Origin: Candidatus Omnitrophota bacterium
GTDB lineage: Bacteria; Omnitrophota; Omnitrophia; Omnitrophales; JACQQS01
NCBI GenBank assembly: GCA_016206925.1
Contig: JACQQS010000036.1
Location: forward strand, 1 to 54,631
DNA length: 54,631 nt
Direction of reading: 5' to 3'
Position 1 is the first letter of the stretch; the number at the start of each line of letters is the position of its first letter. Shown in pieces: positions 1,228 to 28,522 of this stretch. Below the pieces are notes generated by a model, which ran no database searches, was not told the origin of the DNA, and saw only the letters and a list, made by a program, of their open reading frames with translations. The position numbers and the translations under genes are program-made.

Positions 1228-2615
1228 CGGGACGTTTTGAACACTTTCCCGATCGTTTTGGCTCGCCGGTTGAAATATTCATAAACGATTAAACCGGCCG
1301 CAACAGTTCCCGCTCCCCAGAAAAAAGTTTCCAAATTATTTCTAACGCTGAAGACTACAATCCACACGTTCATCGAAATAAACACAATGGGGGGCCACGG
1401 ATAACCAAACGCATTGTAAGGACGGCGTAAATCTGGTCTTTTAAAGCGCAAAAACATCATCCCAGCCACCGTTAAGGCTGAAAAGACAGCGAGCACAAAA
1501 CCCGAATAGACCAGGAGCGTATAAAAGGTGGACGTTAAAGTAAGGATGGCGGCGACAATCCCTTGCAGAATAACGGAGAAGCGAGGTACACGGGATGATT
1601 TATCAACGGTTCCGCACATTCTAATAAACAACTTATTCCTTGCCATTGCATAATAAACTCGGGGTCCACTTATAATCATCGAACTTAGGGTCGAAAGGAG
1701 GCCAAACGCGATCAGGGCAGCAAAAATGAAGCCGGCGTTTTTGCCAAACAATCGCTCAGCGGCCAGCCCCCCGATTTTCTCGACCGCATACATTTCCCTT
1801 GCTGGAATAGCATAAACGTAAAGGATATTGAGTAACACATACATCCCCATTACAAAAAGTGTCCCCGCGATAATCGACAGAGGGATATTTCGCTCGGCCT
1901 TCTCAGCCTCGCTTCCCAAATAGGCCGCGGCATTCCAGCCGCTGTAGGCAAATGAAACAAAAATGAGCGATACTGAAAATTTCTCGGAGAAAATAAAGGA
2001 ATAGTCAAAAGCTGCGTCAAAATGAGTATACGACCCTTTACCAACCGTTAAACCAAACCCAACGAGAAAAAAAATAAGAACAACCTTAAGGAACGTTATT
2101 ACATTTTGAACGCCGACGCCGATGGCCAGTCCTTGAGCATGCAGCCACGTAAACAATATGATCGAAAGAAGCGCCAAAAAGATGGGTGTGTGAACCGAAA
2201 CCACGTTTGACGGAAGCAAAACGGTGCAATACTTTCCAAAAGCAATAGCGGTGGCCGCAATAGGTGCGGAGAATCCTACCCAAAGAGAAACCCAGCCGGA
2301 TAAGAAGGCGGCACGCTTCCCGAAGCTTTCCCGCAAAAAAACGTAGTCGCCGCCCGCTTCCGGAAACATGGCTCCAAGTTCACCGTAACAAAGCGCTCCG
2401 GAAAGAGCTATGAAACCGCCCAGAACCCAGCACAAAAGCATGGCCCACGGATTTTCGACATCCCGCATGATGAAGCCTGAAGTCGTAAATATACCGGTAC
2501 CCACCATGCTGGCTGCAACGGTGAAAAAAAGGGAAGGAAACGACAAAGTGCGTTGAAGTTTCGCTTTGTACTGTCGAACGGCTTTCCCCATAATCAAGTC
2601 AAATGAGCGCGCCAT
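1206..2615 (-). CDS. APC-superfamily amino acid permease
   Basis: The product has 469 residues with about twelve hydrophobic segments. Near the N-terminus MVGTGIF (37-43) matches the glycine-rich unwound helix 1 through which amino acid-polyamine-organocation (APC) transporters bind substrate. The protein should sit in the inner membrane and carry an amino acid or polyamine by proton or exchange coupling; the substrate cannot be read from sequence. The start is uncertain. The first ATG lies inside the right arm of a perfect inverted repeat (2611-2633), no Shine-Dalgarno sequence is visible, and a second in-frame ATG (residue 9) is an alternative. The 3' end overlaps the convergent methyltransferase gene. 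Confidence 0.85.
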   Translation of the reverse strand: MARSFDLIMGKAVRQYKAKLQRTLSFPSLFFTVAASMVGTGIFTTSGFIMRDVENPWAMLLCWVLGGFIALSGALCYGELGAMFPEAGGDYVFLRESFGKRAAFLSGWVSLWVGFSAPIAATAIAFGKYCTVLLPSNVVSVHTPIFLALLSIILFTWLHAQGLAIGVGVQNVITFLKVVLIFFLVGFGLTVGKGSYTHFDAAFDYSFIFSEKFSVSLIFVSFAYSGWNAAAYLGSEAEKAERNIPLSIIAGTLFVMGMYVLLNILYVYAIPAREMYAVEKIGGLAAERLFGKNAGFIFAALIAFGLLSTLSSMIISGPRVYYAMARNKLFIRMCGTVDKSSRVPRFSVILQGIVAAILTLTSTFYTLLVYSGFVLAVFSALTVAGMMFLRFKRPDLRRPYNAFGYPWPPIVFISMNVWIVVFSVRNNLETFFWGAGTVAAGLIVYEYFNRRAKTIGKVFKTSRYLSMFE

Positions 2616-8327: not shown

Positions 8328-9692
8328 ATGGATAATCCCGTGCAAGCGAAAAGCACCGCCCTTTCTCCGGCTGAGCTGTGGCCCGCCATTAAAGACCGCA
8401 TCCGCGGATCCTTGGGCGAGCAAAGTTTTCGAACCTGGTTTGGCCCCGTCGAATTCGCGAGTTTTGAAGATAACATTCTCTCGCTCTCTGTCCCGGATGA
8501 ATTTTACGCGGATTGGCTCAGAGAATATTATGAGGAACTCATCCGCACCTCCGCGGATCTGCTCGGTGTTAAGCCCGTCCTGCACTTCATCGTCAAACAA
8601 ACGCCGAGATTGATTACCACACCTTCATCAATGGGCCAACGGAACGAACCGTCTCCTGCGCCGCCCTCCCAGCGCTACGGGCTGAACGGAAACTTCACAT
8701 TCGACCGCTTCGTGGTTGGGCCCAGCAACCGGTTTGCCCATGCCGCTTCCGCCGCGGTCTCCGAAGCGCCCGCCAAGGCTTACAACCCCCTCTTCATCTA
8801 CGGCCCCGTCGGCCTTGGGAAAACGCATCTCATGCAGGCTATTGCTCACAAGATGATCGAGGACCATAGAGAAGTCAAGGTGCTTTATATCTCAAGTGAG
8901 CGCTTTACAAACCTTTTGATCACATCGATCCAGAACCGGGGCATGGAAAGGTTCCGCGAACGTTTCCGGGAGGTTGACATTTTGCTCGTCGATGACATAC
9001 ATTTTATCGCCGGCAAGGAAACTACCATGGAAGAGTTTTTCCATACATTTAACACCTTATACGACGCGCATAAGCAAATTGTTGTTTCAAGCGACCGCCC
9101 GCCCAAGGAAATTTCCGGGCTAGAGGAAAGGCTGATCTCGCGATTTGCTTGGGGGCTCGTGACGGATATCCAGCCGCCGGATCTCGAAACCCGCATTGCG
9201 ATAGTCCGGTCGAAACTTGCGCGGACGAAAACTTTTATGCCACAGGAAGTTGTCGACTTCATCGCGCAACATATCAAATCCAATATCCGCGAACTTGAGG
9301 GTGCTCTCGTGCGTATCTCTGCCTATTCCTCCCTAACAAACACTTCTATCGGTTTAAATATGGCGAAGGAAGTTCTAAAGGACACCGTCCGCGAAGAGTC
9401 GGGCCGCATAAGCATCGACGGGATCCAGAAGGAAGTTGCAGATTTTTTCCATTTAAAAGTCGCAGATTTGAGGGCAAAACGGCGCACAAAAAACATTGTA
9501 CACCCCAGGCAGGTCGCTATGTTCCTAGCTAGAGATCTCACGAATTATTCCCTCCTAGAAATAGGCCAATATTTTGGGGGGAGAGATCACTCAACAGTTC
9601 TTTATGCCTGTTCCAAGGTTGAGAGGTTGAGTGGTAAAGACTCTGGTTTTTTTGAAACCCTCGCCTTTTTGAAGCGGAAAATTCTTGGTTGA
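8328..9692 (+). CDS. dnaA: Chromosomal replication initiator protein DnaA
   Basis: The product has 454 residues, normal for the family. DnaA binds oriC boxes, melts the origin and recruits the replicative helicase. Domain I (about 10-90) has the expected SFRTWFGP motif. After a short Pro/Ser linker, the AAA+ domain carries Walker A GPVGLGKTH (159-167) and Walker B ILLVDDIHF (218-226). Domain IV ends with the box-binding helix-turn-helix signature GGRDHSTVLYA (about 430-440). It heads the block dnaA-dnaN-DUF721-gyrB-gyrA on one strand. The start ATG at 8328 has no strong Shine-Dalgarno sequence; translation may be modest. The perfect TATAAT promoter and the DnaA-box-like repeats upstream suggest autoregulation. 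Confidence 0.98.
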   Translation: MDNPVQAKSTALSPAELWPAIKDRIRGSLGEQSFRTWFGPVEFASFEDNILSLSVPDEFYADWLREYYEELIRTSADLLGVKPVLHFIVKQTPRLITTPSSMGQRNEPSPAPPSQRYGLNGNFTFDRFVVGPSNRFAHAASAAVSEAPAKAYNPLFIYGPVGLGKTHLMQAIAHKMIEDHREVKVLYISSERFTNLLITSIQNRGMERFRERFREVDILLVDDIHFIAGKETTMEEFFHTFNTLYDAHKQIVVSSDRPPKEISGLEERLISRFAWGLVTDIQPPDLETRIAIVRSKLARTKTFMPQEVVDFIAQHIKSNIRELEGALVRISAYSSLTNTSIGLNMAKEVLKDTVREESGRISIDGIQKEVADFFHLKVADLRAKRRTKNIVHPRQVAMFLARDLTNYSLLEIGQYFGGRDHSTVLYACSKVERLSGKDSGFFETLAFLKRKILG

Positions 9693-9945
9693 TTGTTGTG
9701 TACAAGCCGTGTGTTGGGTGTGGGGAAAAAAAGTTTTTTGTGGAAATGTGCCTTTTGCTGAGTATAGTGCTTCTGTTTGTTATTGGTGTTTGTTTTTAAG
9801 TAGGGTTTTCCACAGGGATTACACAGTGTTAAGTTTTTATACTGAAAGCGTTTATGAGAAGAATTAACATCTCGAACAGGGCTGCTATTACTCCTACTAT
9901 TTTTTTTAAAAAAATAGCAAAAGCCTTAGTAACCGGAGGGTTCAT
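9693..9945. other. dnaA-dnaN intergenic region with DnaA-box-like sites
   Basis: The spacer contains TTTTCCACA (about 9805), TGTGGAAAT (about 9740) and TTACACA (about 9823), all close to the DnaA box. A 21-base palindrome of ten-base arms CTATTTTTTT and AAAAAAATAG lies at 9897-9917. It may be part of the origin or a weak terminator for dnaA. GGAGGG directly precedes dnaN. Confidence 0.5.
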
Positions 9946-11046
9946 ATGAAGTTCACCATTCCCAGATCAGGATTGCAAAGGGCGCTGAGCAAGGTTGTTG
10001 GAGTTATTGGCTCAAGAGCCACGCTCCCCGTATTAGCAAACGTGCTCCTTGAGTCTGAAGGAAAGGATACTCTCTCGCTGGTGGGAACGGATTTAGAACT
10101 CGGTATTTCCACAAAAACATCGGCTGATGTAAGTGAGGAGGGAAGCATCACTGTCCCGGCAAAAAGATTACACGATATTGTAAGAGAATTACCAGAAACA
10201 ACCATCTGCTTCTCAGTAGCAAAGAATCACAACATTACCCTAGAGACGGGGAGGGGCCAATTCAAAATTATGGGTTTGCCAAAAGATGATTTTCCAAAAC
10301 TACCTGAAGCAGACGAAACGCAACCGGTTGAGGTTGACCAAAGCGTGTTACGGGAGTGTCTTAACCTGACTTCATTTGCAATTTCACACGACCAGACACG
10401 GTATGTGTTGAGCGGAACTCTTTTTGTGTTGCGAAATGGGGAGCTTCGCTTGATTGCTACCGACGGGAGACGACTATCGTTTATTAAACGGCAGGTAGAC
10501 ATCCCCAAAAACTACGAGTTTGAGGCTATTGTGCCCGCTAAAGCGGTGAATGAGCTCGGCAAGCTTCTTGAGGGTGTTGGGCTCGTCAAGATTGCCCCGC
10601 TTAAGAACCAACTTGCGTTCGAAGTGGGCGAAACACGGATTGTTACGCGCCTGATTGAGGGACGCTTTCCGAACTATGAACAAGTTATCCCTAAAGAAGA
10701 GAAAACAAAAATTTCCTTAGACCGGGAAGCGCTTTTGTCGGCTATCCGGCGCGCTGCACTGCTGACCTCTGTAGATACGCAAGTCATCAAACTCGACGTG
10801 TTGGGGGACAAACTGCTCGTTTCTTCAAGAACGCCAAATGTGGGCGAGTCGCAGGAAGAGCTGGGGGCGAAGCTGTCTGGGAGGGAAATAGCGATTGGTT
10901 TTAACCCGCAATACCTTATTGATGTCCTGAAAAATTTAAACGACGACGAAATTTTCCTGTGCTTGACCGACCCGGACAAATCCGGCGTTGTGAAAGGCAC
11001 TTCGGATGATTATCTTTATGTGGTCATGCCGATGCAGCTGGTCTAA
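9946..11046 (+). CDS. dnaN: DNA polymerase III sliding clamp (beta subunit)
   Basis: The product has 366 residues, the standard length for the three-domain beta clamp that encircles DNA and tethers polymerase III. The N-terminus MKFTIPRSGLQRALSKV and the C-terminal end with VVMPMQLV are typical of the family; the last residues form part of the partner-binding pocket. A strong GGAGGG ribosome site lies eight bases upstream of the ATG. In many bacteria recF follows dnaN; here the next gene is DUF721 and no recF is found in the window. An inverted repeat (AAGCGGT with ACCGCTT, about 11061-11125) follows the gene and may attenuate read-through into the DUF721 gene. Confidence 0.97.
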   Translation: MKFTIPRSGLQRALSKVVGVIGSRATLPVLANVLLESEGKDTLSLVGTDLELGISTKTSADVSEEGSITVPAKRLHDIVRELPETTICFSVAKNHNITLETGRGQFKIMGLPKDDFPKLPEADETQPVEVDQSVLRECLNLTSFAISHDQTRYVLSGTLFVLRNGELRLIATDGRRLSFIKRQVDIPKNYEFEAIVPAKAVNELGKLLEGVGLVKIAPLKNQLAFEVGETRIVTRLIEGRFPNYEQVIPKEEKTKISLDREALLSAIRRAALLTSVDTQVIKLDVLGDKLLVSSRTPNVGESQEELGAKLSGREIAIGFNPQYLIDVLKNLNDDEIFLCLTDPDKSGVVKGTSDDYLYVVMPMQLV

Positions 11047-18450: not shown

Positions 18451-18553
18451 CGCTCCGTTTTTTGGTTACGCCTCCACCCCGAAAGAGACGGCCATCCATG
18501 GCGCGTCCGTGGACTTGATATGAAACGAAGCGACGCATCCGATCCAGGATGGA
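18451..18553 (+). repeat. Diverged third copy of the tRNA-Ser leader repeat
   Basis: It shares CCGTTTTTTGGTTACGCC at the 5' side and TCCGTGGACTTGATATGAAACG followed by GCGACGCATCC at the 3' side (quoted in pieces) with the leaders at 18658-18724 and 27173-27238. It has about 35 extra bases in the middle and no tRNA after it. The closing hairpin is kept in altered form (CATCC with GGATG). Confidence 0.6.
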
Positions 18554-18657: not shown

Positions 18658-18724
18658 GCCCCGTTTTTTAGTTACGCCGTCCCTCCATGGACTTCATGAG
18701 AAACGGGGCGACGCATCCTGCGTC
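18658..18724 (+). repeat. Structured leader repeat in front of tRNA-Ser(GCT)
   Basis: The 67 bases directly before the tRNA form an outer stem GCCCCGTTT with AAACGGGGC, an inner hairpin CATG-gactt-CATG, and a second hairpin GACGCA-tcc-TGCGTC that ends at the first tRNA base. The same element precedes tRNA-Ser(TGA) at 27173-27238 with compensating changes in the inner stem. Confidence 0.75.
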
Positions 18725-18811: not shown

Positions 18812-18891
18812 CCATCCTTCCTCGATTTTTCTTCTGTGTGACGCTCAGTAAGGAAGGCTGGCAAATTTACCTGTATTGGGAAATTTGTCTC

Positions 18892-19861
18892 ATGATTCCC
18901 CGCTTGATTTCCCAAACCATTCTCGACCCCACATGGGGTCGGCAAATGCGTTTTATTGTAGGACCACGCCAGTGTGGGAAAACCACACTTTCCAAGGCTA
19001 TTCTCACTCAAGAGGGCTCATCTCCTAAACTTTACTTTGATTGGGATGAGCGCGTTGTCCGGTTACGTTACCAAAACGACCCGGATTTTCTTTCCGAAGA
19101 GCTTACCCTGTACATGAAGAGCAAAATTCTTCCATGGGTAGCGTTTGATGAAATTCACAAATATCCGAAATGGAAGAATGTTTTAAAAGGAATTTTTGAT
19201 AAACACGAGCCGAGATTGAGACTGTTGGTGACAGGAAGCGCGCGGCTGGATTTAATTAGACGTGCCGGCGACAGCCTTTCCGGGCGGTACTTTACATATC
19301 ATTTATTTCCTCTCTGTTTGCGTGAGACGGCCCAGCAGAAAAAGATTTCCATCGTTAAACCTTTGAAAAGCGCGAAAGCTTTTCTTGAGGAGAGATTTTC
19401 TAACGAGAAGTTTTATCAAAGTAATCTCGTTCATCTGCTCGAAGCAGGGGGCTTTCCAGAGCCCTTTTTGAAGAATTCGAAAGCTTTTCAAAGAAAGTGG
19501 CACATGGATTTCGTCGACCGCCTTATTCGGGGCGACCTCAGGGACATGACGCGGATTGAAAAGCTTGAGCATGTGGCTTATTTGCTGAGGCTGATCGCCG
19601 AACGTGTAGGAAGCCCTCTCTCTTTAAATTCCCTCCGTGAGACACTCGAAGACAGTTATAACGCGGTGCGAAACTACAGATGAGAAACCGTGGCTTCTCG
19701 TGGAGGCGAAACTCTCAGACCAGCCGATCGATGCCCACCATTACGACCACGCCGAGGCGTTCGGCGGCGTTCCAATAGTACAACTTGTTAGGGAGGATAA
19801 AGTTGCAAGAGCAGGAAATCGCAAGGACTATCGAATATCCGCGTCGAGATTTTTTGCCTAA
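18892..19861 (+). pseudogene. AAA_14/DUF4143 ATPase with internal deletion
   Basis: Intact family members are about 380-420 residues with an N-terminal AAA_14 ATPase and a C-terminal DUF4143 nuclease-like domain. Here the ATPase part is well kept: Walker A GPRQCGKTT (24-32), Walker B WVAFDEIHK (82-90), and a sensor-like LLVTGSARLD. The reading frame then runs to EDSYNAVRNYR and stops at 19683. The last 60 codons of the family (KPWLLVEAKLSD onward to 19861) continue in another frame. The middle of the DUF4143 domain, roughly 100 residues, is missing. ATG at 18892 matches the usual start; an earlier in-frame start overlaps the tRNA 3' flank. It is part of the decayed segment after tRNA-Ser(GCT). 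Confidence 0.8.
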
Positions 19862-20189: not shown

Positions 20190-21596
20190 TTGAGTCAAGC
20201 GAGGGAAGTAATTCTAATTTCTCTTATCAGTGTTTGTTTTGCGATGATCAGTAGCGAACTTCAGGCTGCTGATGAGGGCGAGATCGAAATCTTAAAACAA
20301 ACTATTCAACAGCAACAGCAGGTTATCGATAAGCAACAGCTGAAACTCGAAGAAGTCTTTAGAAAAATGGCTGTCCTTGAGGCGCGTCTTGACGCACAAG
20401 CTCCCCCTTTAGATGCTGCTCCGCGGCGTGTCGATTTAAACTCAGATGAAGCTGAATCATTTCCGGACTCGTCCCCTGCCAATAACGTTTTGGAAAGACC
20501 CTGGTATAGGAATATACGCGTTGACGGTTTCGGAGGCGCCGGATTTGTTTGGACGGAGGGCGGCGCCCGAAATGAGCAAGGCAATTTTTTGAACTATGAA
20601 GCAACAGTGAATTTAGAAGCCGAGGTGTGGGAAAATATCAGTTATTTTCATGAACTTCAGACCGTTCGACTTGGAGATGAAACAACCAAATTTCTGAGAA
20701 CAGGCGAAGTCTATGTCCATTTCAAGGATTTACTCCGTACTCTTTTCGGATGGGAAGGCAACTACCTTGGTCTAAAGCTCGGACGCATGGACATTCCTGT
20801 TGGAGAAGATTACCTGTTTCAAGATGTAATTGATAATCCTTTAATTACTTTGTCCGCGGCATATCCGTACGGATGGGATGAAGGTTTGGTCCTCTACGGA
20901 AAGCTGCACGGAATCAACTGGGTCGGGGCGGTCATGGATGGGACCGATGACCGTGCTTTTGAGGATGATTCAGAAAAGTTTCTCAGTTTCAAAATCTACG
21001 GCAATCCTACCGAGCATTTGTATCTCAGCGCAAGCGGCTTTCGAAATGGACGGGCGAGTAAGTCGGCCTGGGAATTTGGCGGTTCTCATTTTGAGCCTCT
21101 TGGAACCGGCGCTACAAGCTCGCTGGGGTCGAGCAGCGCAAGCGCCGTAAACGCTTATTCTTATGAATTCGACGCGCGCTACAACTTTGGTTACGAACGG
21201 TACTTGGGGCTGCAGTACGGAGCCGCCTTTGTTAGTGACAGCGGCAATTTTGACCGCACGATTCATTATGTAAAAGTCGAGCCCAAATGGGACTTAGGAG
21301 CTGCCTTTAACCACAAACTTTACATTGTGGGGCGTCTGAGCACCATAGGCACCTTTGACGACGAAGGTTATTCGTTTGATGGAAAGCCGTTTGCAGGCGG
21401 CAAGAGCAAATTTGGTTATGATTTGTCTTCGCTTGTCCGTTGGGCGCTCGGCATCGGCTATTGGTTCAATCCGCATACGTTGGTGAAAATCGAGTATTCA
21501 AGAGACGAATTTCACCTTATCGAGCAGTCCCGTTTGGTTAGATCCGGCGATGGGCGAAATTTCCTGGGCGTTGTCACAGCGCTTAAGTTTGGGTAA
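20190..21596 (+). CDS. Outer-membrane beta-barrel (porin-like) protein with N-terminal coiled coil
   Basis: The product has 468 residues and starts at TTG, six bases after AGAGGAG. A signal peptide (about 1-27, ending in LQA) is followed by a Gln-rich coiled coil (about 30-70) and then alternating hydrophobic/aromatic strands typical of a phosphate-selective-porin-like barrel (for example GNYLGLKLGRMDIPVGEDYLF). The coiled-coil-plus-barrel arrangement is common in diderms where the coil reaches the peptidoglycan. The next gene encodes a cupredoxin, and a second barrel/cupredoxin pair follows, so the barrel may deliver or house a copper protein or its substrate. The transported solute is unknown. 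Confidence 0.75.
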   Translation: MSQAREVILISLISVCFAMISSELQAADEGEIEILKQTIQQQQQVIDKQQLKLEEVFRKMAVLEARLDAQAPPLDAAPRRVDLNSDEAESFPDSSPANNVLERPWYRNIRVDGFGGAGFVWTEGGARNEQGNFLNYEATVNLEAEVWENISYFHELQTVRLGDETTKFLRTGEVYVHFKDLLRTLFGWEGNYLGLKLGRMDIPVGEDYLFQDVIDNPLITLSAAYPYGWDEGLVLYGKLHGINWVGAVMDGTDDRAFEDDSEKFLSFKIYGNPTEHLYLSASGFRNGRASKSAWEFGGSHFEPLGTGATSSLGSSSASAVNAYSYEFDARYNFGYERYLGLQYGAAFVSDSGNFDRTIHYVKVEPKWDLGAAFNHKLYIVGRLSTIGTFDDEGYSFDGKPFAGGKSKFGYDLSSLVRWALGIGYWFNPHTLVKIEYSRDEFHLIEQSRLVRSGDGRNFLGVVTALKFG

Positions 21597-21635
21597 CGGC
21601 CATCGCAGCCTTGTTCAGTTCAAAACGGTGCGCGG

Positions 21636-22391
21636 ATGACCGAAAATAGGGCAAGTAATGAAAAAAGAGGGCGAAGCTTTATAAGCCTGTGCGCAGCAGC
21701 CATTCTGGCGTACGGTGTTGCAGGTGGTTTTGTCGACGGAATCTGCAGCGCTGCCCAAGCGCCATTCTCAATTCGCGGTGCTGTGGGAATTCGAGACCGC
21801 GAAGGAAAGGCGAAGCAAGACCACAGCGGGGTTGTGGTTTTTCTAGATGATTTGACCAACCCTCCACGGCATGAGGCGCCTGCTGAGAATGCCAAGATCA
21901 GTCAAGTCGGAAAACAGTTTGTCCCCAGCGTCCTTCCGATTGCGGCGGGGGCAACAGTCGATTTTCCAAACGACGATATGGTTTATCACAATGTATTCTC
22001 ATTTTCGCAAGCGAAATCCTTCGATCTTGGAATTTATGAGCGAGGGAGCAAACGTTCCGTAACCTTTGATCAGCAGGGTCTTGTAAAAGTGTATTGCAAT
22101 ATTCATCCGCAAATGGTTGCGAACATCCTGGTTTTGCCAAACGCCTTCTTTTCCGTTACAGATTCAAAGGGCGAATTTATTCTTTCAGGGGTACCGCGCG
22201 GTGAAGCAACCGTGAGAACTTGGCACGCACGTAGCAGCGAACAGCCGGAACAGCGCATCTACGTAAAAGAAGAAGGGATTTTCGCTACGGATATGCGGCC
22301 TATCGGGAAAATAGAATTTCAGATTACGGAGGATCGTTTAGCCGTCAAGCACAAGAACAAATGGGGGCAGGATTACCCCGCCAAGTATTGA
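21636..22391 (+). CDS. Exported cupredoxin-domain protein (copy 1)
   Basis: The product has 251 residues with a signal peptide ending near residue 45. The central domain (about 105-180) has type 1 copper ligands: His in DFPNDDMVYHNVF and Cys, His and Met in VYCNIHPQM. The C-terminal part (about 175-220, FSVTDSKGEFILSGVP) looks like a carboxypeptidase-regulatory or beta-sandwich domain. This architecture matches the plastocyanin-like group annotated as methylamine-utilisation proteins. It would carry electrons or sense copper/redox state outside the inner membrane. The copy at 24347-25126 is a close paralogue with the same ending (GQDYPxKY). No strong ribosome site precedes the ATG. Confidence 0.85.
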   Translation: MTENRASNEKRGRSFISLCAAAILAYGVAGGFVDGICSAAQAPFSIRGAVGIRDREGKAKQDHSGVVVFLDDLTNPPRHEAPAENAKISQVGKQFVPSVLPIAAGATVDFPNDDMVYHNVFSFSQAKSFDLGIYERGSKRSVTFDQQGLVKVYCNIHPQMVANILVLPNAFFSVTDSKGEFILSGVPRGEATVRTWHARSSEQPEQRIYVKEEGIFATDMRPIGKIEFQITEDRLAVKHKNKWGQDYPAKY

Positions 22392-22543
22392 TATGTACCC
22401 GCCTTTAAGGAAATATTCGCTTCCATCCCCATCCGGTTACCTTTGATCTACGTCAATTCGGAGGCTATTTTCAACTATTTATAGTTACGATATTTGTGCC
22501 GATAATCTACTCGGGCTTTCATTCTTGGTGTTGTGGGGACTAA

Positions 22544-22954
22544 ATGATGATTAAGGATCAAAAGTTAGTTTTATTCACAGGAGGGGGATTCTTGTGTTTA
22601 TGGTTAGACCTGTTTCTGGGTCACGCGAGCTCAGGAATGACGCATCCGGGAATGTGGGTGCCCCTGATTTATCTGCCATGCGCGGTCATTCTGTCCGTCC
22701 TTTCGGGTTTGCACAGCACGGAGTCTGGCAAACGTCTTTTTTGTCTGGTTTGTAAAGGCGCTATTGTGATCGGACTCGTTGGTTTTTGTTTTCATTCCAT
22801 AAGACTGTGGCACGATGTGAGTAAAAGCGCCATGCAGTGGGAGGTCGTTTTTCGGCTTTTGCGTTATCCGCCTTTGCTTGCGCCTTTGGCTGTTTCTGGC
22901 TTAGGCGTGCTTGGCGTTTTGGTGACCAACTCAAATGGAGGTTCCATAAAATGA
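22544..22954 (+). CDS. Four-helix membrane protein of unknown function
   Basis: The product has 136 residues with about four hydrophobic segments and short loops; His and Cys residues lie near segment ends (LGHASSGMTHPGMW, LVCKG, FCFHSIRLWH). I do not recognise the family. Its stop codon overlaps the start codon of the second barrel (ATGA at 22951-22954), so translation is coupled. It sits between the two barrel/cupredoxin pairs and may be an inner-membrane redox or copper-handling partner; that is inference. Confidence 0.6.
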   Translation: MMIKDQKLVLFTGGGFLCLWLDLFLGHASSGMTHPGMWVPLIYLPCAVILSVLSGLHSTESGKRLFCLVCKGAIVIGLVGFCFHSIRLWHDVSKSAMQWEVVFRLLRYPPLLAPLAVSGLGVLGVLVTNSNGGSIK

Positions 22955-24387
22955 TGCGATCAACAAATAGAAACACAAATCTTGTCATTTTCTGCTTTTT
23001 CACATTTCTATTTCCCGCTGTCTGTCTTGGCGCAGACACCGATCAAACCAATGAAATAGCTCAACTCAAAGCCAAGATCAACGAACAAGACTCGCTCATC
23101 CGACAGCTGGTCGAGCGGGTGGTTCATTTGGAGAACACCGTTCCTGCGTCTTCGGCACCGGCCGCTCCCTCTGCGCTCAACAGAGTAAGCTTAGAGAGCG
23201 AGGAGCTGGGCGCGCTTCCTGCGGGGATAGTTCAGAAGGAGCCTGAAAAATTACCGCTTAAAATCAGCGGCTATATCGATATGGGTTATATAGACCAAAG
23301 CGGCAAAGGCACGGTTTCCACAAGCGCCCTTCACATCAATTCACGCGCGGACACGTTGGCCTCCGTAGGACTGGATGGTGACTCGAGTTACTTGGTGAAT
23401 GAAGTCAACTTGAATATAAAAGCCGGCTTGTCGCCCAAAGCAGAGGCGGTTTCAAATGTCTCGTTTTTGCCGAGAAAATTAACCTTCACCGCTACCGGAG
23501 GAACGGCCTTGACCGACGCGGTCGGAGTGAATCTGGCATATCTGGCCTACCGGCCCTTTGAGGAGGGAAATTTCTGGACGGACACGTTGCTAGGAGATTT
23601 GAACGTTTCCATCGGGAAATTTGATTCACCCTGGGGGATTGAATACCGGTACAATTTTTCACCCGATCGAGTCAATATCTCACGCTCCATGATGTCCATC
23701 TATTGGACGGGGTATCCGGTCGGCGTTAAGGTCCGCGGCAAGCTCTTAAAAGAAATGCTTCAACGATTTCAAAATTCGGAGTTCACTTATAATTTCGCGG
23801 TGGTCAACGGTGAACCTTGGATTGCATCGCTGGTCGATATGGATCGTGCGACCAGCAAGCGGCGCACGCTTGTAGGACGATTGTCGTACGGTTTAGATAT
23901 TTTTGATGGTTTTTTTGAATCCGGCTTCTCGTTTGCCAACGGAGCCAGGATCAATCAGGGGGATGAGGGAACCAATCAATACTCACTCGGTGCTGATGTG
24001 CGATTCGAACGCGGGCCTTGGACTACGCGCGCTGAAATTGATTATTCCGATCTCGACGCGGCTCGTAATGGGTCAAGCCAAGCCATTCGTTTCCAGCACT
24101 GGTACGTGGAGAGTTTTTACGAAATTTCGAAACCAGGGCTTTTGCCTTCCTGGGTACCCGTGGTTAGCTTAACGCCTTATTACCGTTATGACAGGCGCTA
24201 TCTGACCACGCTCTTCTCCGCCGTCTTTCCAGCAGTTTCGGTGACCAATGTAGGTCGAAATACATTGGGCTTGCGCTATATCCTGCGCTCGGGCACTATG
24301 CTGAAGCTTGAGTACGAGCTCGTATCTGAGAAAGGAACCAAGGTTAATGATGACATATTCCTTGCCTCATTTGTTCAGGAGTTTTAA
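22951..24387 (+). CDS. Outer-membrane beta-barrel porin, OmpL/BBP2-like
   Basis: The product has 478 residues from the ATG at 22951, which has GGAGG nine bases upstream. A signal peptide (about 1-29) and a short coiled coil (about 35-65) precede a barrel with FDSPWGIEYRYNFSPDRVN and SMMSIYWTGYPVGVKVRG, features of the putative beta-barrel porin-2 family. It has the same coil-plus-barrel plan as 20190-21596 but is not a close copy. It is followed, with overlap, by the second cupredoxin. The pair of pairs suggests duplication of a module in which a barrel and an extracytoplasmic copper protein act together. Confidence 0.75.
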   Translation: MMRSTNRNTNLVIFCFFTFLFPAVCLGADTDQTNEIAQLKAKINEQDSLIRQLVERVVHLENTVPASSAPAAPSALNRVSLESEELGALPAGIVQKEPEKLPLKISGYIDMGYIDQSGKGTVSTSALHINSRADTLASVGLDGDSSYLVNEVNLNIKAGLSPKAEAVSNVSFLPRKLTFTATGGTALTDAVGVNLAYLAYRPFEEGNFWTDTLLGDLNVSIGKFDSPWGIEYRYNFSPDRVNISRSMMSIYWTGYPVGVKVRGKLLKEMLQRFQNSEFTYNFAVVNGEPWIASLVDMDRATSKRRTLVGRLSYGLDIFDGFFESGFSFANGARINQGDEGTNQYSLGADVRFERGPWTTRAEIDYSDLDAARNGSSQAIRFQHWYVESFYEISKPGLLPSWVPVVSLTPYYRYDRRYLTTLFSAVFPAVSVTNVGRNTLGLRYILRSGTMLKLEYELVSEKGTKVNDDIFLASFVQEF

Positions 24388-25126
24388 CATTTCGCGGAGG
24401 GTTAGAAGGCGCCTTGCCGCGCTTATCGCCGTTTTGTTTTTGGGAACCGTAGGACTGGGCTCAACCGCCGTTCCCGGATTTGCGGCGAGTGCCCCCTCGG
24501 TTCGAGGGTCCGTGACCATTGTAGACAAAGAGGGCCGGCCGAAGTCCAACCACGAGGGTGTTGTGGTGTTTCTGGACGAATTGGAGCAGGGGGCTGTTTC
24601 TGCCGCGCCGTCTCCGCTGGCGCATGCAGAGATCCGGCAGAACAATAAACAGTTTTCCCCCAGGGTGCTGCCTATCTTAGCCGGCACTACCGTTGACTTT
24701 CCCAATGACGACACCGTGCACCATAACGTGTTTTCGCTGTCGCGCACCAAGCCTTTTGATTTGGGGATTTACGGGCAAGCGGTGAAAAAGTCTGTGACAT
24801 TTGACCAGCCTGGTTTGGTGAAAATTTACTGCAACATCCATCCCAATATGGTGGCGTACCTTTTGGTTCTCGCAAATCCCTATTTTACCGTTACCGATTC
24901 CAAAGGAGAATTTGTCATTCACGAAGTACCTTTGGGGGTCGCAATCATCAGAGCGTGGCACTCCAAGAGCCGCCAGGAAGCGGAGCAGAAAATTCATGTG
25001 ACGGCGGAAGGCGTAAGAGACATTCGCTTGAACGTGTCTCAAGACGTGCATTTTGAAATACAGGAAGAAACTATCTCCATCGAGCATAAGAATAAAACCG
25101 GTCAGGATTACCCCGAGAAATATTGA
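24347..25126 (+). CDS. Exported cupredoxin-domain protein (copy 2)
   Basis: The product has 259 residues from ATG 24347, which overlaps the barrel gene by 41 bases; an AAGG sequence lies just upstream. A twin-arginine-free signal peptide with a basic start (RRVRRR) and hydrophobic core ends near residue 48. Copper ligands are conserved: His in DFPNDDTVHHNVF and Cys-His-Met in IYCNIHPNM. The C-terminal beta domain repeats that of copy 1. Expected role is electron transfer or redox sensing in the periplasm. The stop overlaps the start of the sensor kinase by one base, which ties this protein to signalling. Confidence 0.85.
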   Translation: MMTYSLPHLFRSFNISRRVRRRLAALIAVLFLGTVGLGSTAVPGFAASAPSVRGSVTIVDKEGRPKSNHEGVVVFLDELEQGAVSAAPSPLAHAEIRQNNKQFSPRVLPILAGTTVDFPNDDTVHHNVFSLSRTKPFDLGIYGQAVKKSVTFDQPGLVKIYCNIHPNMVAYLLVLANPYFTVTDSKGEFVIHEVPLGVAIIRAWHSKSRQEAEQKIHVTAEGVRDIRLNVSQDVHFEIQEETISIEHKNKTGQDYPEKY

Positions 25127-26964
25127 TGGCGCTTAAACTCGGCCAAAAGCTTTTGATCTGCATTACCCTCTTGGTCACTGGGTTAGTAATGGCTATTATG
25201 GCCACGATTCATTTCTCGATTACCAACGCTGTGCGCGACGAGATTCAAAATGATCTTTCAGGCGTGCAAAAAGTTTTTGAGGAATTCCAGCGTTTGCGCA
25301 GTCAAGAGCTCTTGGCCAACGCCCGAACGGTCGCCGAGATTCCGCAGTTAAAAGCGGTGGTCACGACCCCGGACATCGATCATGCTACGCTTTTGGATAC
25401 GGCGCGGGAAGTTCAAAAGCTTACCAAGAGCGATCTTTTTATGCTGTGTGACGCGCGCGGGGAGCTCCTGGTCAGCGTGACGGAGCCCGACAAATATCAA
25501 GAAGATGTTACCGGCGATCCCGCTTTCGCCGCGGCGCTTCAGAGGAAATTCTATCAAGGCGTGCGGGTGGTAGGAAACCAAATCTACCAAGTAGTTGCCG
25601 GCCCTTTTCTTTTAGAGAACGATGTGGTGGGGGCGTTGCTTGTCGGATTTTCCATTAATTCCATACGGGTACAGTCGCTGGAACAAATGCTGAGTTGTCA
25701 GTTGGCCGTCGTGGGCCCCGGGGCCATGGTTACTTCTCAAAGCTCCGCGGCTTTTTTCGAAAAATTAGAGCAAATGAAACTCCTGAGTAAGAAAGGCCAG
25801 GTTGGTAGCGGTATTCATACGCAGATGGTGGAAGGAGAAAGGTATATCTTCTTCTGGGCACCGTTCGGCCAAGATGAATTTGTTGAAATTTATTATGCGA
25901 TGGCCCGCTCTCTGGATAAGGAGCTGGCTGCTTTTCGCAATTTGCGGAGAAAACTGATCTTTCTTACGATAATAATCCTGTGCGTGGCTCTGGGGATCGG
26001 GTGGTTTTTCTCGCGAGGGATCACGCAATCCATACAGGTGCTCGTTGAAGGGACTAGGAAGATCTCCGGGGGGGACCTCCAGACACGCATCAAGGTTTCT
26101 TCGAAAGACGAGATCGGCGACCTGGGCGTGGCTTTTAATCGTATGGTGGAAGATTTACAGAAAACGACGGTCTCACGCGACGCTTTGGCCAAAGAGATCA
26201 CCGAACGCAAGAGGTACGAGCAAATCGCCATTCAATCCGAAAAAATGGCTATGGCAGGCGAACTGGCCTTTGGAGTTGCCCATGAGGTTAAAAATCCGCT
26301 GGCCATCTTGCTTCAGGGGATCGATTACCTCACCTCATATGCGAAAAGTGACGATAAGAACGTGCCCGGGCTGCTGGAAGACATGACGCGAGCGGTTAAG
26401 CGCGCCGATTATGTCGTCAGAGGGCTGCTTGACTTAGGGAGATCCACGCGTTTTGAGTTCAAGCCCGAAGACTTAAATCCCATTATCGATAGCGTTTTGC
26501 TCCTGCTCAAGCGCCATCTAGAAACAGGCCGGATTCGTATCATCAAGAATTTTGCGGATAACTTTCCAAAAATATCAGTCGATCGGGGGAAAATGATGAG
26601 TGTATTCGTGAATCTTTTGTCCAATGCTGCGGATGCGATGCCTCCCGGCGGATCGATTACGATCACAGCTGCCTTACAGGATCTCACGGAAGTGGGTTCT
26701 CATGTGGGCCGCAGGAAGGAAGATACGTTTAAAGTAGGCCAGGAGGTTGCCGTGATTAAGATTGAGGATACGGGGTCCGGCATTCCAGAGGATGCTTTAC
26801 CGCATATTTTTGACCCTTTTTTTACCACAAGACGCGGCAGAGGGGGGACAGGGCTTGGGCTGTCCGTGGCCAAAAATATCGTAGAAATGCACCATGGGAC
26901 GATTGAGCTTACCAATAGAGAGGAAGGAGGTGCCCGGGCCACCATCATGTTGCCTATGGGATGA
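25126..26964 (+). CDS. Membrane sensor histidine kinase (Cache-HAMP-HisKA-HATPase)
   Basis: The product has 612 residues. A membrane helix (8-29) is followed by a Cache-type extracytoplasmic sensor of about 240 residues, a second helix (about 275-297), a HAMP linker, the phospho-accepting H box VAHEVKNPLAIL (H386), an N box NLLSNAADAMP and G boxes DTGSGIP and GRGGTGLGLSVAKN. It should autophosphorylate on H386 after sensing a ligand outside the inner membrane. The start ATG overlaps the cupredoxin stop, so it is the last gene of the cluster. No response regulator gene is present in the window, which makes it an orphan kinase. Confidence 0.92.
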   Translation: MALKLGQKLLICITLLVTGLVMAIMATIHFSITNAVRDEIQNDLSGVQKVFEEFQRLRSQELLANARTVAEIPQLKAVVTTPDIDHATLLDTAREVQKLTKSDLFMLCDARGELLVSVTEPDKYQEDVTGDPAFAAALQRKFYQGVRVVGNQIYQVVAGPFLLENDVVGALLVGFSINSIRVQSLEQMLSCQLAVVGPGAMVTSQSSAAFFEKLEQMKLLSKKGQVGSGIHTQMVEGERYIFFWAPFGQDEFVEIYYAMARSLDKELAAFRNLRRKLIFLTIIILCVALGIGWFFSRGITQSIQVLVEGTRKISGGDLQTRIKVSSKDEIGDLGVAFNRMVEDLQKTTVSRDALAKEITERKRYEQIAIQSEKMAMAGELAFGVAHEVKNPLAILLQGIDYLTSYAKSDDKNVPGLLEDMTRAVKRADYVVRGLLDLGRSTRFEFKPEDLNPIIDSVLLLLKRHLETGRIRIIKNFADNFPKISVDRGKMMSVFVNLLSNAADAMPPGGSITITAALQDLTEVGSHVGRRKEDTFKVGQEVAVIKIEDTGSGIPEDALPHIFDPFFTTRRGRGGTGLGLSVAKNIVEMHHGTIELTNREEGGARATIMLPMG

Positions 26965-27172: not shown

Positions 27173-27238
27173 GCCCCGTTTTTAGTTTCACCGTCCGCCC
27201 GTGGACTTGACGGGAAACGGGGCGACGCATCCTGCGAC
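27173..27238 (+). repeat. Structured leader repeat in front of tRNA-Ser(TGA)
   Basis: Second good copy of the leader: outer stem GCCCCGTTT with AAACGGGGC, inner hairpin CCCGT-ggactt-gACGGG, then GACGCATCCTGCGAC up to the first tRNA base. Compared with the copy at 18658-18724, the inner stem differs in sequence but still pairs, which suggests selection on RNA structure. Confidence 0.75.
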
Positions 27239-27404: not shown

Positions 27405-28271
27405 TTAAATCGCTTTAGCGCGCTTGAGGAATGAAGCCCCGGCCATGCCGATACCGAGCAGTATGAACGTGGCAGGTTCGGGAATAACGCCTTGGTTAAC
27501 GCCGCCCTCATCGACTTGGCCTCTTCCTGCGACGGAAAGAATCTGCCCGAATCGATCAATATCAACCGCGTTGAGGCCAAAATCGCCCAGGAAGATATTG
27601 TGTGAAAAATTGCCGTTAACATCGCCGTTTGTTAACCCCAAGCCGGCGCCAAAAGCGGTAACAGCGATACCGGACTCATCTTGATTAAAAGCAGTACTGG
27701 TAGCAACGAAGGGAAGATAACCGAACCACCCGCCGTTTGGGGTCAGGTGGGCCCCACTGTTTCCTTCTGCCATTGCGAATAATCCGCCGCCTGCGTTTAA
27801 GAAACTAATAATGTCGGCAGATCGTGCATTTAGGATATCAAGCTCTGCTTGCCTTAGAAGCCCTCCAAAATCGGAAGCAACGACGATCGCGCTGTAAACA
27901 GAACCCAGATTGTCCAATGCGCCGCCCAACGTTGTGAAATCATGGTGATCGAAATCCACGCCGTTGGTGTACCCGCTTGCAACAATGCCGTTCACGCCGC
28001 GCGTGTGGCCGCCCGGGACGGCGCCTTTGGATTCTACAAAGAGAAGCTTTCCGACAGCGGCAAAAGGGTTAAAGGCCACGTTATTAACGAAATTGATAGC
28101 CGCATTAATAATATTGCGCGCCCCGGCTGCATTCCCGCCGATCGTCGCATGAAAGTCGGGATCGTGTCCGGTTAGGAAAATTGAACCCGCCAAGGCCGGC
28201 GCGATGGTTAAAAAAGGAAATATTAGAGTAAAAACAAGTACACTAAGAAACCTTCGATGAGTTATTCGCAT
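27405..28271 (-). CDS. PEP-CTERM exported protein
   Basis: The product has 288 residues. A signal peptide (about 1-24, ending APALA) starts the protein and the C-terminus carries the exosortase sorting signal: PEPAT, a hydrophobic helix and the basic tail LKRAKAI. In this system the C-terminal segment is cut by an exosortase and the protein is released to the surface or matrix. The body begins IFLTGHDPDFHAT and contains DIISFLNAGGGLFAMAEG, which suggests a ThuA or glutamine-amidotransferase-like fold (weak). The start ATG at 28271 has AAGGGA seven bases upstream; an earlier in-frame start lacks support. No exosortase is in the window. Confidence 0.85.
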   Translation of the reverse strand: MRITHRRFLSVLVFTLIFPFLTIAPALAGSIFLTGHDPDFHATIGGNAAGARNIINAAINFVNNVAFNPFAAVGKLLFVESKGAVPGGHTRGVNGIVASGYTNGVDFDHHDFTTLGGALDNLGSVYSAIVVASDFGGLLRQAELDILNARSADIISFLNAGGGLFAMAEGNSGAHLTPNGGWFGYLPFVATSTAFNQDESGIAVTAFGAGLGLTNGDVNGNFSHNIFLGDFGLNAVDIDRFGQILSVAGRGQVDEGGVNQGVIPEPATFILLGIGMAGASFLKRAKAI

Positions 28272-28522
28272 TTTGAATTCCCTTATCTTTAGGTTAAACC
28301 TGAAAACTGTGAAAATTGAAAGCGTTAAATAAGGTGCAAGCGCCATACCATCCCCTTTTTTCTTTTCTGCGGCGCGGTGTTAAGGGGTTTTACAGTTATG
28401 AGACGTAAAAGAGGTGATAAGTTGAGTAATGTTAAAATTGCTTATCAAGCTGTAGAAATTTTTAGACTTTTGTTTTGGACTAAACAGGAGAGCCAATGGG
28501 AAAGGAAAGACTACGACAAGGC

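Follow-up and report, generated by a model that had tools for sequence, protein, structure and literature searches.

Several bacterial transducers rely on a partner protein outside the cytoplasm. In TorT/TorS and LuxP/LuxQ, an exported protein is encoded beside a transducer that combines a periplasmic sensor with a HAMP domain. The copper-sensing two-component systems CusRS and CopRS likewise use a histidine kinase whose sensor is periplasmic, and MtrAB-type porin-cytochrome conduits associate an outer-membrane barrel with a periplasmic redox protein. Cupredoxins are known to carry electrons or to handle copper, and to our knowledge none has been described as the dedicated input of a membrane sensor. 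We describe here a six-gene locus, positions 20190 to 26964 of a 54,631-nucleotide stretch of Candidatus Omnitrophota DNA (hereafter 'the window', contig C8 of a draft genome of 2.0 Mb, with 87 contigs and a completeness of 86%), in which two predicted outer-membrane barrel proteins (B1 and B2), two exported cupredoxins (C1 and C2) and a small membrane protein (S) precede a sensor histidine kinase (HK).

We propose that the six genes form an envelope signalling module, in which the cupredoxin serves as periplasmic input to a dCache sensor reading the redox state of its copper; we give this reading a probability of about 0.6. The barrel would allow the periplasmic type-1 copper protein to be acted on by a small oxidant, reductant or metal species, or by a partner at the surface; the transducer would then detect the state of this protein with its periplasmic dCache domain. 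HAMP would relay the signal to the kinase domain, and HK would phosphorylate a regulator encoded elsewhere in the genome. The state read is most likely the Cu(II)/Cu(I) redox state rather than the amount of copper. By analogy, the module may work as a transducer with a periplasmic accessory protein, a blue-copper protein taking that role and presumably contacting the sensor. It departs from TorT/TorS and LuxP/LuxQ in having a copper protein as accessory where those systems have a periplasmic binding protein, and in including an outer-membrane barrel. Unlike CusRS/CopRS, the window has no adjacent regulator and, in the three flank proteins scanned, no efflux family, its sensor is dCache_3-like, and a dedicated cupredoxin is the likely input. 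Unlike MtrAB-type conduits, it has no multihaem cytochrome, and the conserved partner is a signalling protein.

A proteobacterial operon annotated as DUF3034 - truncated haemoglobin - 'methylamine utilization protein' - GGDEF-EAL, for instance on a plasmid of Caballeronia sp. Sq4a (locus L035), is a further counterpart. As in the window, a homologous cupredoxin (40% identity) directly precedes a dCache_3-HAMP protein, and the upstream gene, DUF3034, probably encodes an outer-membrane protein; the operon differs from the window by its GGDEF-EAL output, by the truncated haemoglobin and by the DUF3034 nature of its outer-membrane gene. Only annotation was found for it, the full-text literature searched yielding no functional paper. 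The name 'methylamine utilization protein' given to this cupredoxin family (L033-L036) is probably misleading, since the genes lie together with those for DUF3034, truncated haemoglobin and EAL proteins; around the five plasmid homologues that were inspected, the annotation shows no mau (methylamine dehydrogenase) gene within 6 kb. As for the module itself, no description was found in the full text of the literature searched, which leaves subscription papers largely outside; its novelty is therefore likely, and it appears to be undescribed.

The proposal is carried first by the conservation of the cupredoxin-sensor arrangement. An alignment of C1 and C2 was used to scan 84,980 genomes, and 80 loci were picked by cupredoxin sequence alone. 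Pfam dCache_3 was too insensitive for the HK-type sensor in 58 relatives, and a purpose-built alignment was used instead. With this sensor model, a homologous sensor-HAMP protein was found beside the cupredoxin in 65 of the 80 loci, usually directly downstream, and the proteobacterial plasmid copies were recovered as well. Genes of the relatives were called mechanically, as the longest open reading frame (ORF), so that some loci could not be scored; among the 73 with simple gene assignment, the gene following the cupredoxin was an HK homologue in 51, often overlapping it by 4 bp; such an overlap, or a spacing about as close, is usual in relatives. On the other side, the upstream gene could be assigned in 50 loci and its product ended in F, W or Y, the usual mark of outer-membrane barrels, in 42 of them (compared to 17% for other genes of similar length). 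The first-pass annotation of this DNA had called for a synteny check, and conserved synteny is what we observe. By sequence, the window itself has the same arrangement, with a predicted cupredoxin directly before a transducer that carries the homologous sensor.

Linked loci were present in Acidobacteriota, Planctomycetota, Verrucomicrobiota, Myxococcota, Gemmatimonadota, Bacteroidota, Zixiibacteriota, Latescibacterota, Krumholzibacteriota, Lindowiibacteriota and Armatimonadota, on plasmids of Pseudomonadota, and in one more genome (G021) of the window's own order. The synteny spans at least twelve named phyla, as named in the titles of the draft-genome records. Such a title is probably wrong for two linked records, which are labelled Actinomycetota but fall among the Acidobacteriota. 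L066, under the title Bifidobacterium breve, has a module of acidobacterial type, and is probably a mislabelled or contaminated draft. No relative was detected in the viral contigs searched.

The search was also run in reverse, with the sensor region stripped of kinase domains, on the 22 whole genomes behind cupredoxin loci. It returned 31 sensor homologues, 25 of which lay within 2.5 kb of a cupredoxin, 20 of them directly downstream on the same strand. Of these 25, 21 belonged to the loci that had selected the genomes. The other ten matches had no part in that selection: four were near a cupredoxin (G061:C547, G061:C195, G076:C340 and, on the opposite strand, G063:C368), and six, all weaker, were not. 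On the cupredoxin tree, sensor linkage requires 9 changes, against 42 on average when shuffled. The tree also has a well-supported set, of 48 rows, in which no sensor is linked; two further cupredoxin copies of the source genome belong to it, one on contig C35 and one on C24, where it adjoins cytochrome oxidase genes. The unlinked state of this set is less certain, because part of it comes from short loci with a flank of only about 1-1.5 kb. The view that an ordinary kinase merely follows two unrelated envelope genes, for which the missing regulator speaks and nothing more, is refuted by the synteny and by this reverse search, and retains a negligible probability.

While barrel, four-ligand cupredoxin and sensor are constant, the output domain varies. 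Among 63 downstream genes, HisKA was present in 41 and HATPase_c in 41; other outputs were a kinase of LytS type (L106), receiver-bearing hybrid kinases (L067, L089, L107), adenylate/guanylate cyclases (L043, L062 and L177, the last in G021), a GGDEF-HD protein (L113) and the dCache_3-HAMP-GGDEF-EAL protein of the Caballeronia plasmid. In G021 (L177, 3028-11244), the cupredoxin is followed by a sensor-HAMP-cyclase and then by a barrel-like gene ending in F, with receiver-domain-like proteins on the flanks. At somewhat under even odds, we tentatively suggest that a class of sensors exists in many phyla, with a blue-copper periplasmic input, a barrel gate and kinase, cyclase or cyclic di-GMP outputs, reading extracellular redox via a copper carrier. 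If so, bacteria of soil, groundwater and sediment could sense redox or copper conditions outside the cytoplasm. For many genes that at present bear the label 'hypothetical' or 'methylamine utilization protein', the conserved unit supplies one hypothesis that can be tested, and since its output varies, the signal could be sought in a cultured relative whose output is GGDEF-EAL or a cyclase.

C1 and C2 are matched by PF00127 (plastocyanin/azurin) at 1.3e-4 and 1.4e-3, respectively, and each has a weak match to a CarboxypepD_reg-like domain. They are 51% identical. The four type-1 copper positions (His, Cys, His, Met) are occupied in both, and are retained in 129 of 129 homologues, so that the loss of copper ligands in orthologues, which the first-pass annotation had set as a ground for refuting its reading, was seen in none. 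The AlphaFold model of C2 has a mean predicted local distance difference test (pLDDT) of 84.8, above 90 in the cupredoxin core, and its Foldseek matches at probability 1.00 include the purple cupredoxin 5fc9, the cupredoxin part of NirK and amicyanin. By fold and ligands, C1 and C2 are thus predicted to be type-1 cupredoxins, with putative copper binding and redox activity. They share the fold and the four ligands with 5fc9, NirK, amicyanin and plastocyanin; unlike these, the window type also has a beta segment at its N-terminus and a CarboxypepD_reg-like domain at its C-terminus, and it is linked with genes for signalling.

The nature of the signal is where the main alternative arises. The cupredoxin could report its copper occupancy (apo or holo) to a kinase that controls copper homeostasis. 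The invariant ligands and the encoding of an exported metal protein beside a kinase are in keeping with such a sensor of copper ions; type-1 sites, however, usually bind copper tightly and act as electron carriers. Moreover, copper efflux or oxidase families were absent from the 25 commonest of 198 families in the flanks (118 flanking genes, 27 loci), and no copper efflux family was found in the three window flank proteins scanned. Haem partners also count here. The closest relatives of C1 and C2 are the cupredoxins of four planctomycetal and verrucomicrobial loci (L038-L041), which have an extra N-terminal domain with a CxxCH motif and are apparent cytochrome c'-cupredoxin fusions (Table 1), the cytochrome c' match being below the Pfam cut-off in the two that were scanned (1.3e-4 and 1.2e-3). 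In L047, L050 and L051, a five-haem protein is encoded between cupredoxin and kinase, and the proteobacterial plasmid copies include truncated haemoglobin. These partners make a redox link plausible, and are easier to reconcile with a sensor of redox state, oxygen or nitric oxide than with one of copper alone. We consider the copper-ion sensor unlikely.

In both B1 and B2, a signal peptide and a short coil accompany a beta-rich body; B2 has a weak match to BBP2 (0.0013). B1 homologues (E 6e-89 to 2e-69) lie directly upstream of the cupredoxin and transducer in L038-L041, and B2 homologues (E 1e-29 to 5e-25) are found upstream of cupredoxins in the myxobacterial loci L047, L048, L050, L051 and L072, and also in L056. 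The AlphaFold model of B1 is poor (pLDDT 48, five sequences) and was used only for its strand number, about 16; its best Foldseek matches, to which we give low weight, are 16-stranded porins. Sequence and model thus point to an outer-membrane barrel upstream of the cupredoxin in the window too. The locus had at first been described as a duplicated barrel plus cupredoxin. This holds for the cupredoxins, which are sisters in the tree (Shimodaira-Hasegawa-like approximate likelihood ratio test, SH-aLRT, 98). It does not for the barrels: because B1-B2 similarity is marginal (E 0.002) and the nearest relatives differ (Planctomycetota/Verrucomicrobiota for B1, mainly Myxococcota for B2), they are best assigned to two different families, and not to a recent duplication.

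The pairing of a barrel with a redox protein recalls porin-cytochrome conduits, and it may be asked whether the two move electrons over the outer membrane for respiration, the kinase being merely regulatory. The myxobacterial versions, which have multihaem cytochromes, one of them weakly MtrC/MtrF-like, lean that way. In the window, however, the set has no cytochrome, as the first-pass annotation had noticed, and none of the translations of B1, C1, S, B2, C2 and HK contains a CxxCH motif. In most relatives the module consists of barrel, cupredoxin and transducer only; one copper site within such a porin-like barrel would not be enough to bridge the outer membrane; and GGDEF-EAL proteins and cyclases are signalling outputs. 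We regard such a conduit as improbable. Of the two functions initially suggested, extracellular electron transfer is not supported for this window, the sensor rather than a respiratory chain being what stays with the cupredoxin across phyla; sensing is favoured by the joint maintenance of barrel, cupredoxin and Cache-type transducer in many phyla.

Some observations weigh against a redox-reading signalling module. In 15 of the 80 loci there is no sensor, some of these being contig ends. The invariant ligands also fit a copper-occupancy sensor, and in the window neither a haem protein nor a regulator is adjacent. Finally, three sensors from the same order (G021:C50:28572, G029:C40 and G032:C9, E 1e-47 or better) follow another exported protein, with no cupredoxin; the sensor is thus not exclusive to cupredoxins, and its family may generally respond to whichever protein the preceding gene encodes, most commonly a cupredoxin. 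The pairing of this sensor type with another exported protein was seen at L174 (4570-5859), L175 (2707-4839) and L176 (852-2948), in G021, G029 and G032; two of the exported proteins are helix-like and without Pfam family. A transport function could be built on the same pairing with a non-copper protein: the barrel would import a substrate, and the sensor would read a loaded binding or scaffold protein made of cupredoxin and CarboxypepD_reg-like domain, copper being only structural. The presence of that domain agrees with it, but four copper ligands invariant in all homologues argue for a working copper site, and we give this scheme little credit.

The organization of the locus is given in Table 1. 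All six ORFs of the first-pass annotation were found on the + strand, and its description of them holds in almost every detail. B1 and C1 are 39 bp apart and a 152-bp gap follows C1, after which S, B2, C2 and HK are successive overlapping or abutting genes: the stop of S and the start of B2 share ATGA (22951-22954), and the ATG of C2 at 24347 lies within the 3' end of B2 (41-bp overlap). This spacing may indicate two transcription units, B1-C1 and S-B2-C2-HK. The last cupredoxin does overlap the kinase gene, as had been reported. A scan for sigma-54 promoters, prompted by the NtrC-type regulators of the relatives, gave no more matches than expected by chance. S belongs to no Pfam family and had no convincing homologue in the 58 relatives or the 80 homologous loci.

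Table 1. Coordinates of the module genes in the window and of fused relatives in other loci
Feature	Description	Position	Strand	Remarks
B1	Predicted exported coil + outer-membrane beta-barrel, 468 amino acids (aa)	20190..21596	+	TTG start at 20190, preceded by AGAGGAG
C1	Predicted exported type-1 cupredoxin, C-terminal CarboxypepD_reg-like domain, 251 aa	21636..22391	+	
S	Small inner-membrane protein, about four hydrophobic segments, 136 aa	22544..22954	+	
B2	Predicted exported coil + outer-membrane beta-barrel, 478 aa	22951..24387	+	C-terminal residue F
C2	Predicted exported type-1 cupredoxin	24347..25126	+	Ligands H139, C175, H178, M181 (counted from TTG at 24308)
HK	Transmembrane segment (TM), periplasmic dCache-like sensor, TM, HAMP, HisKA, HATPase_c; 612 aa	25126..26964	+	
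C2 stop/HK start	Overlap TGATG	25124..25128	+	
L038	Apparent cytochrome c'-cupredoxin fusion	9566-10615		Planctomycetota, Verrucomicrobiota (L038-L041)
L039	Apparent cytochrome c'-cupredoxin fusion	1456-2508		
L040	Apparent cytochrome c'-cupredoxin fusion	9545-10612		
L041	Apparent cytochrome c'-cupredoxin fusion	9272-10369		

The initial description of HK as a Cache-HAMP histidine kinase is borne out by Pfam for HAMP (9e-16), HisKA (6e-5) and HATPase_c (1e-24). The Cache region is weak in Pfam (sCache_3_2 0.0027, dCache_3 0.024), and was recognized by the sensor model built from other loci with the window left out, which matched residues 4-289 at 4e-31. The kinase had also been called an orphan without response regulator. 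Locally this is so, contig C8 having no receiver domain (27 were found elsewhere in the source genome), but it does not extend to the relatives: a regulator, always of NtrC type, directly follows the kinase in 10 of the 34 next genes scanned, and in Bryobacteria an OmpR-type regulator precedes the barrel (L085). Given these neighbouring regulators, the orphan state of HK looks derived, or a matter of gene scatter. Genome-wide pairing, which had been suggested as a way to the partner, gave two NtrC-type candidates, one on C38, which overlaps its own kinase gene, and one of 454 aa at the start of contig C64. Similarity to the regulators of the relatives does not separate them, and neither is therefore named as partner.

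Around the module, a 31-nt element, TGGACTTNANNNGAAACGNNGCGACGCATCC, is present at 18510-18540, 18688-18718 and 27202-27232, these being the only three copies in the genome. Two copies stand 6 nt before tRNA-Ser genes (anticodons GCT and TGA), and one has no tRNA behind it. Together with the tRNAs, the element makes up 156-nt repeats (78% identical) that bracket an 8.5-kb block containing the module. An island was considered for this block and rejected, the bracketing tRNA-Ser genes differing in anticodon. Upstream of the module, an AAA_14/DUF4143 ATPase gene (18838-19861) appears to be broken: its first ORF stops near the beginning of DUF4143, and what looks like the C-terminal end of the protein is encoded by a second ORF that overlaps the first in a different frame. 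Just downstream of the module, an exported protein encoded on the - strand (27405-28346) has a PEP-CTERM sorting motif.

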